Positions 15,667-17,458 of a stretch of DNA of 64,000 nt are shown in pieces. The position numbers and the translations under genes were made by a program. Location of the stretch: NCBI RefSeq assembly GCF_001675285.1, contig NZ_LSGQ01000004.1:1-64000 (forward strand), written 5' to 3'. Below the pieces are notes generated by a model. The model was not told where the DNA came from. It was given only the letters and a program-made list of their open reading frames with translations, and ran no database searches. The stretch's first letter is position 1. The number at the start of each line of letters is the position of its first letter. Origin of the DNA: Elizabethkingia miricola. Its GTDB lineage: Bacteria > Bacteroidota > Bacteroidia > Flavobacteriales > Weeksellaceae.

Positions 15667-16365
15667 ATGATTAATAAAACTGTTAAAAATGTACAGGAAG
15701 CCTGCGACGGAATTCAGGATGGCATGACGATTATGCTTGGAGGTTTCGGTCTTTGTGGAATTCCTGAAAATTGTATTGCAGAATTGGTAAAAAAAGAAGT
15801 GAAAGACCTTACCTGTATTTCTAACAATGCCGGAGTCGATGATTTTGGACTTGGATTACTTCTTCATAAAAGACAAATCAAGAAGATGATATCTTCTTAT
15901 GTAGGTGAAAATGCAGAATTCGAACGTCAGCTTCTTAGTGGTGAACTTGAAGTGGAACTTATCCCACAAGGGACATTAGCTACACGCTGTATGGCTGCAG
16001 GCTACGGAATGCCGGCTGTCTATACCCCTGCAGGTGTAGGTACTGAAGTTGCTGAAGGTAAAGAAGTCCGTAACTTCGATGGTAAAGATTATTTACTGGA
16101 ATATGCTTTTGATGCTGACTTTGCAATTGTAAAGGCTTGGAAAGGTGATACTGCCGGAAATCTTATTTTCCGCTCTACTTCCAGAAACTTTAATCCGGTA
16201 ATGGCTATGGCTGGCAAAATAACAATTGCTGAAGTTGAAGAATTGGTTGAAGTTGGTGAGCTTAATCCCGATGAAATTCATACTCCTGGAATCTATGTTC
16301 ACAGAATATTCCAGGGAGACCATTATGAAAAAAGAATTGAACAGAGAACGGTAAGAAAGAAATAG
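15667..16365 (+). CDS. scoA: 3-oxoacid CoA-transferase subunit A
   Basis: A 232-residue CoA-transferase family I alpha subunit. It begins with the [21 protein letters not shown] block and the LCGIPENCI loop that binds CoA, with [22 protein letters not shown] in the middle and [12 protein letters not shown] near residue 140. With subunit B it would transfer CoA between succinyl-CoA and acetoacetate (or another 3-oxo acid). It is normally directly next to scoB, but here 436 bp carrying a four-helix-bundle gene separate the two. Confidence 0.92.
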
Positions 16366-16373
16366 TAATAATG

Positions 16374-16391
16374 ATTTGAAAATTTGAAAAT
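16374..16391 (+). repeat. left inverted repeat of the S23 insertion
   Basis: These 18 bases, two copies of ATTTGAAA-type sequence, are the exact reverse complement of 16760-16777. The repeat starts 9 bp after the scoA stop codon. Confidence 0.85.
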
Positions 16392-16397
16392 GGGCTA

Positions 16398-16751
16398 ATG
16401 AGAAATGATAAGGAAAATATTATTGTTGCTAAATCATTCAGTTTTGCTTTGAAAATAATTGATTTTTCCAGCAAAATAAAAATAGCAAAGAAATATTCCT
16501 TAGCCAGCCAAATATTCAGAAGCGGAACATCAATAGGAGCCAATATAAGAGAGGCTCAAAATGCTGAAAGCAAACCTGACTTCATCCACAAAATGAAGAT
16601 CGCAGCAAAAGAAGCAGATGAACTTGAATACTGGTTGTTACTTTGTAGAGAGTCTCCACATCTGATTAACCCTTCTCCGGATTTATTTGAAGAATTAACA
16701 TCAATAATCAGTATCTTAACAAAGATTATTGCGACTTCAAAAAGATCCTGA
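16398..16751 (+). CDS. four-helix-bundle protein (S23 / 23S rRNA intervening-sequence protein family)
   Basis: A 117-residue all-helical protein of the S23/IVP family. Family features are FSFALKIIDFSSKIKIAKKYSLASQI, the RSGTSIGANIREAQNA motif near residue 45 and DELEYWLLLCRES near 78. Relatives are encoded in intervening sequences of some 23S rRNA genes, and a Bacteroides homologue forms a pentamer; the biochemical role is not established. Here it sits alone between scoA and scoB, bounded by 18-bp inverted repeats. The ATG follows the left repeat by 7 bases. It appears to be an insertion into a conserved operon. Confidence 0.88.
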   Translation: MRNDKENIIVAKSFSFALKIIDFSSKIKIAKKYSLASQIFRSGTSIGANIREAQNAESKPDFIHKMKIAAKEADELEYWLLLCRESPHLINPSPDLFEELTSIISILTKIIATSKRS

Positions 16752-16759
16752 AAACACAT

Positions 16760-16796
16760 ATTTTCAAATTTTCAAATTGCCAAATTTTCAAATTAT
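16760..16796 (+). repeat. right inverted repeats of the S23 insertion
   Basis: Bases 16760-16777 are the exact inverted copy of 16374-16391. A second partial copy follows at 16781-16796 and ends 5 bases before the scoB ATG. The left arm could pair with either right arm in RNA or DNA. Confidence 0.85.
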
Positions 16797-16801
16797 TAAA
16801 G

Positions 16802-17458
16802 ATGCTAACGAAAGAACAAATTGCACAACGTATTGCAAAAGAAATAAAAAATAACAGTTATGTTAATCTGGGTATTGGGATTCCTACATTGGTTGCCAAC
16901 TATATTCCGGAAGGTGTAAATGTTGTATTACAATCTGAAAATGGATTGCTAGGTATGGGACCTTTCCCTTTTGAAGGTGAGGAAGACCCGGATCTTATCA
17001 ATGCTGGTAAACAGACTATCACTACCCTTCCAGGATCTGCAGTTTTTGACTCTGCATTAAGTTTCGGAATGATCAGAGCGCAAAAAGTAGATTTGACAAT
17101 CCTTGGAGCTATGGAAGTTTCTGAGAACGGAGATATAGCCAACTGGAAAATTCCGGGAAAGATGGTAAAAGGTATGGGTGGTGCCATGGATCTTGTCGCT
17201 TCGGCAAAGAACATAATTGTCGCTATGCAGCAGGTAAATAAAAGTGGTGAAAGCAAACTATTGCCGGAATGTACTTTACCATTAACCGGAGTAAAGTGTA
17301 TTAAAAAGATTGTTACCGAACTTGGTGTTTACGAGGTACTTCCTGAAGGTGGATTCAAAGTCCTGGAAAGAGCTCCCGGAGTAAGCCTTGAAGAAATAAA
17401 AGCTGCAACAGCCGGAAAGCTTTATGCAGATGAGGATGTCCCGGAAATGGTCTTCTAA
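16802..17458 (+). CDS. scoB: 3-oxoacid CoA-transferase subunit B
   Basis: A 218-residue beta subunit of CoA-transferase family I. The catalytic glutamate lies in QSENGLLGMGP near residue 47, and GAMEVSENGDIANW and GGAMDLV are further family blocks. It pairs with ScoA encoded at 15667-16365. Its start codon lies directly after the right inverted repeat of the S23 insertion, so its translation signals lie in repeat sequence. A hairpin terminator follows. Confidence 0.92.
   Translation: MLTKEQIAQRIAKEIKNNSYVNLGIGIPTLVANYIPEGVNVVLQSENGLLGMGPFPFEGEEDPDLINAGKQTITTLPGSAVFDSALSFGMIRAQKVDLTILGAMEVSENGDIANWKIPGKMVKGMGGAMDLVASAKNIIVAMQQVNKSGESKLLPECTLPLTGVKCIKKIVTELGVYEVLPEGGFKVLERAPGVSLEEIKAATAGKLYADEDVPEMVF

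Follow-up and report, generated by a model that had tools for sequence, protein, structure and literature searches.

An S23 gene between inverted tandem-repeat arms at scoA–scoB looks like a small mobile unit of bacterial operons

The scoA and scoB genes of the window, the 64-kb stretch of DNA analysed here, are separated by a unit of ~430 bp that is very probably a mobile cassette, consisting of an S23 gene and its cognate inverted short-tandem-repeat arms and inserting between the genes of operons. In a comparison spanning hundreds of genomes, S23 genes are associated with such arms, the arms are specific to S23 subfamilies, and gene and arms occur together at non-homologous sites. At scoA–scoB the unit is present in some genomes and absent from others, with arm-only remnants, and S23 genes show both an orientation bias and purifying selection. 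As far as we have found, S23 with repeat arms looks like a widespread, undescribed class of small mobile element; a literature search covering part of the literature returned no earlier description of S23 or four-helix-bundle genes with flanking repeats.

The insert has the layout described in a first-pass annotation of the window (Table 1). The 436 bp given there between scoA and scoB are exact (16365 to 16802), the gene assigned to the S23/IVP family scores well over the cut-offs of two profiles (PF05635, 84.8 bits against 33.8; TIGR02436, 98.6 bits against 24) and the perfect inverted repeat of 18 bp is 100% complementary. The extra repeat copy noted near 16781 belongs to a run of overlapping copies that spans 16765–16800, and the 3′ end of this right arm lies immediately 5′ of the scoB start codon. 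With up to two mismatches allowed, the repeat motif occurs five times in the window (0.36 expected), four of them at the S23 gene. S23 is the sole open reading frame (ORF) between the arms, and the cassette encodes no transposase, recombinase or reverse transcriptase (RT). The gene is not inside a 23S rRNA gene, and no conserved 23S/16S motif was found in any S23 locus that we fetched.

Table 1. The scoA–S23–scoB locus in window coordinates, with start codons taken as the first possible.
Feature	Position	Strand	Basis or detail
scoA, 3-oxoacid CoA-transferase subunit A, upstream neighbour	15667..16365	+	TIGR02429, PF01144
Left arm, ATTTGAAA octamers	16369..16396	+	Perfect core 16374-16391; weaker complementarity to 16369-16405
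S23 / 23S rRNA-intervening-sequence-protein gene, 117 aa, four-helix bundle	16398..16751	+	Profiles, AlphaFold model, PDB matches
Right arm, inverted octamer array	16757..16800	+	Perfect core 16760-16777; copies 16765-16784, 16773-16792, 16781-16800
scoB, 3-oxoacid CoA-transferase subunit B, downstream neighbour	16802..17458	+	TIGR02428

First, the junction itself differs between relatives. Among the six genomes of the genus that we compared, scoA–scoB holds the S23 gene with its arms in the window genome (G000), arms around an S23 frame split by a 2-bp deletion in G003 (L008), arms alone in G002, and nothing in G004, G001 and G005. Empty sites, which the first-pass annotation had proposed to seek in close relatives, are thus present in three of the six, along with decayed and arms-only states; each genome represents one species, and the insertion is therefore seen between species, not strains. 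Because the bases 3′ of the S23 stop codon survive in the arms-only scar of G002, this scar probably arose by deletion from the gene-bearing state, between short TGAAAA repeats. No target-site duplication is shown by this comparison, which draws its empty sites from different species and none from a near-identical strain. In other genera, the resolved scoA–scoB junctions are mostly short and empty; one (L344) has a scar of the window’s arm type without the gene, and another junction (L352) carries a hairpin of a different repeat type, also without the gene.

Second, related units occupy unrelated sites. The closest homologues of the window S23 (66–68%) are found in genus g17 at a different operon junction, between two catabolic genes resembling those for enoyl-CoA hydratase and 3-hydroxyacyl-CoA dehydrogenase (names read from the neighbour sequences). 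Their arms, AATTTGAAAATGGGTTAATTTGAAAATT (L224/L225), are of the same type as the window’s ATTTGAAAATTTGAAAATGGGCTAAT, with ATTTGAAAATGGG(C/T)TAAT common to both. On a tree, the window copy is nearest to the g17 copies and not to the scoA–scoB occupants of other families, which do not form one clade; occupancy of the ‘sco’ site requires three changes, at least two of them forced by well-supported branches. Other arm types recur in the same manner: GTTTAAAG arms lie at the unrelated sites L128 and L144, with homology between the two loci stopping at the outer arm ends; CAAGAACC arms lie at carA–carB, at pyrB–carA and at an unrelated locus (L072); and GGAAGTT arms lie at L132 and L139. The earlier suggestion of a small mobile unit is upheld by the presence, absence and remnants at scoA–scoB, by the g17 copy with its matching arm type and by the general link between S23 and arms. 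Movement nevertheless looks infrequent, because the best pair of S23 genes from non-homologous sites in the family sample is 79% identical and near-identical copies at two sites were not seen.

The window genome has seven PF05635 genes, five of which sit between co-directional operon genes with flanking inverted arms, the repeat unit differing at each locus (sco, his, trp, kdsB-adjacent and macA–macB-like; names other than sco were read from sequences, not profile-scanned). An exact 16-mer of the window’s repeat has scoA–scoB as its sole site in a whole-genome search, so the expectation of one repeat common to the S23 genes was wrong; the other genes bear complementary arms of their own. One S23 gene of this genome (L001, G000:C1:184973-185281) has an in-frame TAG and weak arms and looks to be decaying. 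The genome also contains a nested inverted repeat of ~140 bp, AGAGCCTGTTTAAATTTT with an inner CTTCGACAGGCTCAG, that is unrelated to S23 (L256, G000:C1:64171-64312). At carA–carB in L059, L056, L064, L073 and L083, the unit sits at the old carA stop codon, and CarA consequently acquires a tail translated from the arm (for example, KNQEPRTKNQEYA); in relatives such as L088, the protein ends in EDFKK. In L081, two S23 units of different subfamilies and arm types occupy adjacent junctions, carA–carB and pyrB–carA, of one operon in one genome.

Third, the association of gene and arms is general. We scored arms by the best alignment of the left flank with the reverse-complemented right flank. In the main sample of 139 distinct S23 ORFs of the host family, 74% reach a score of at least 13, compared with 4.6% across loci and 1.8% after shuffling; in a non-redundant set of 91 loci, 52 (57%) reach at least 14, compared with 12 of 451 neighbouring control genes (2.7%). 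The share of S23 genes whose flanks fall short of the arm threshold varies with the sample and the cut-off, from roughly a quarter to 45%. Among pairs at non-homologous sites, which are not independent of one another, arm sharing at a threshold of at least 15 is 42% (LL) and 52% (RR) when the S23 proteins are 70–80% identical and falls to about 1% below 50% identity, and ends are conserved between copies at different sites within one subfamily but not across subfamilies. In 400 kb of the window genome, such arms at 300–500-bp spacing occur only around an S23 gene; we accordingly rejected the idea that they are free-standing genome repeats.

Orientation is strongly biased. With neighbours called by a simple ORF rule, 133 of the 139 family genes are co-directional with both neighbours, and across all samples with co-directional neighbours, 241 S23 genes are sense and 10 antisense (about 96% sense). 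Strictly sense insertion, as expected of RNA-only targeting, is weakened as a candidate by antisense insertions that have good arms (L181, L190, L198, L205 and L210).

The arms are tandem arrays of 7–8 nt, with a unit private to each S23 subfamily and a median length of 4.6 units. The period is 7 in most (53 of 82) and 8 in the next largest group, to which the window’s own arm belongs. G is enriched and C depleted in left arms, with right arms as their mirror image. When the 82 distinct heptamer units are aligned in phase, they have G---T-A in common, that is, TNAGNNN, a skeleton with 2.24 bits of information compared with 1.76 ± 0.03 when columns are permuted.

Such arms could instead act in RNA, as in an intervening sequence: paired in the operon mRNA, they would form a stem cut by RNase III, freeing the S23 message from the flanking cistrons. 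The predicted fold of 16340–16830 is indeed closed by the arm stem (MFE −99.5, z −3.4), the arms lie close on either side of the gene, transcription passes through the unit in the sense direction, and the S23 genes of rRNA intervening sequences lie within RNase III-cut stems (PMC4990558). We nevertheless consider this explanation unlikely. Mismatches between arms number 35 of the G–U type and 49 of the A–C type; this lack of a preference for G–U gives no sign of selection for an RNA duplex, and the complementarity seems not to be maintained by RNA pairing. The retention of arms without the gene in G002 and the antisense insertions with good arms also count against it.

The protein encoded by the unit is evidently functional. 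Same-site S23 orthologues have dN/dS values mostly of 0.03–0.15, a strong purifying selection that indicates that the protein works and that it is of use to the host or the site; a purely selfish element could do without such a use. The first-pass label ‘selfish’ is therefore too simple. The broken genes in G003 and L001 indicate that S23 is at times dispensable. The AlphaFold model of the window S23 has four helices (mean pLDDT 93), and the PDB structures that it matches best are those of two S23 proteins, 2rld and 2gsc (2rld TM 0.75–0.82 by query length). Both entries contain five chains, which is suggestive of a pentameric S23 ring.

A ring of this kind might serve regulation, binding the arrays in its own operon mRNA in a TRAP-like manner and tuning translation of the downstream gene, with mobility incidental. 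This would suit the position of the right arm against the downstream start codon, the median of 4.6 units alongside five chains in two solved S23 proteins, the purifying selection at fixed sites and the tracking of protein subfamily by arm type. Several observations make it a doubtful account of the unit, however: host genes vary greatly between sites, most orthologous junctions lack the unit, antisense copies exist, and a regulator that binds mRNA needs no two mirror-image arms. Neither RNase III processing nor a role in regulation would be at odds with mobility.

Movement by way of RNA, in trans through a host RT with S23 acting like the Avd protein of diversity-generating retroelements (DGRs), is quite improbable. 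In fold, S23 is similar to Avd (4dwl, TM 0.67–0.72) and, less closely, a DGR RNP (8ub7, TM 0.58–0.61), the homology has been noted (PMC10053308), sense orientation in operons would fit an RNA intermediate, and RT genes are present in most genomes of the genus. Against this, Foldseek gives the Avd match a weak E-value of about 0.5, antisense copies occur, the RT genes of the window genome lie at C27 and C1 with none beside S23, and G005 has eight S23 genes with no RT detected. Chance low-complexity repeats around an ordinary operon gene might be entertained given the AT-rich intergenic DNA of Bacteroidota and the shortness of the repeats, but are scarcely credible in the face of the cross-locus, shuffle and control-gene comparisons and the confinement of such arms to S23 in 400 kb of the window genome.

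A mobile cassette would then work as follows. It would enter operon junctions almost always in sense, filling the space from just past the upstream stop codon to just short of the downstream start codon. S23, an Avd-like four-helix bundle, may bind its own arms, perhaps with one repeat unit per subunit, and in this way it would flag the unit’s ends for movement. Expression of S23 may come from the host operon transcript, which would explain the bias towards sense orientation.

The layout of S23 gene and arms extends throughout the phylum Bacteroidota and to cyanobacterial plasmids, including a site between cas10 and cmr3, and also occurs in Chloroflexi, Atribacterota, Patescibacteria, Omnitrophota, Rickettsiales, Campylobacteraceae and others; a restriction to Bacteroidota, as first proposed, is too narrow. 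Among 27 loci labelled outside the main Bacteroidota set, a sample reached via one query protein, 78% have an arm score of at least 14. S23 is multi-copy in most Bacteroidota tested (51 of 60 family genomes and 90 of 118 phylum genomes). On plasmids of Cyanobacteria, S23 genes interrupt CRISPR operons at cas10–cmr3 with arms (Picosynechococcus, L178) and at cas6–cas4 without arms (Pseudanabaena, L179). The Nostoc edaphicum plasmid unit L181, antisense between two ribonucleotide reductase genes, has stronger arms than any other locus in the cyanobacterial set. A Nostoc plasmid also has a gene-less hairpin (L366, NZ_CP054697.1:263749-263865) with the AGGGAGT heptamer found in the arms of an S23 element ~4 kb away; a further single array lies at 258113 of NZ_CP054697.1.

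To our knowledge, S23/IVP genes have had no known function so far. Their pairing with cognate arrays gives these proteins a testable role, that of binding the cognate array. The cassettes explain ‘four helix bundle’ genes that split scoA–scoB, carA–carB and cas10–cmr3, they link rRNA intervening sequences, Avd-like proteins and operon-interrupting genes, and they suggest a source for long-unexplained heptanucleotide repeats. More tentatively, as a possibility that we would not yet call probable, S23 cassettes could be minimal mobile elements found across the domain, with ends read by an S23 ring at one unit per subunit and subfamily end codes written on the TNAGNNN frame; the heptanucleotide arrays of Cyanobacteria, Beggiatoaceae and Bacteroidota would be their ends or remnants, and 23S rRNA intervening sequences would be copies that landed in rRNA.

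Several known systems share parts of this anatomy. Insertion sequences and MITEs are likewise short units with inverted ends, presence/absence patterns and arm-only remnants, whereas the S23 unit has no transposase, has ends that differ by subfamily and shows a strong sense bias in operons; with empty sites drawn from different species, no target-site duplication was seen. Avd of the DGRs has a related four-helix-bundle fold (PMC10053308), but the window S23 locus has no RT with template and variable repeats, and inverted arrays flank the gene instead. The S23-encoding intervening sequences of 23S rRNA in Coxiella burnetii and Leptospira (PMC4990558) are likewise ~430-bp S23 units with terminal inverted repeats, scattered presence and suspected mobility. 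The window unit has their stem (18 bp perfect, and the closing stem of the predicted RNA fold), but lies between operon protein genes and has arms that are 7–8-nt tandem arrays private to an S23 subfamily. Finally, the heptanucleotide repeats of Cyanobacteria (STRRs) and the TAACTGA tandem repeats reported in Beggiatoaceae, Cyanobacteria and Bacteroidetes (PMC4679880) are, like most S23 arms, intergenic arrays of 7-nt period, often just 5′ of start codons. They were described without a gene partner, whereas S23 arrays are the two mirrored ends of a cassette; read on the other strand, TAACTGA is TCAGTTA, which fits TNAGNNN and may link such arrays to S23 cassettes.
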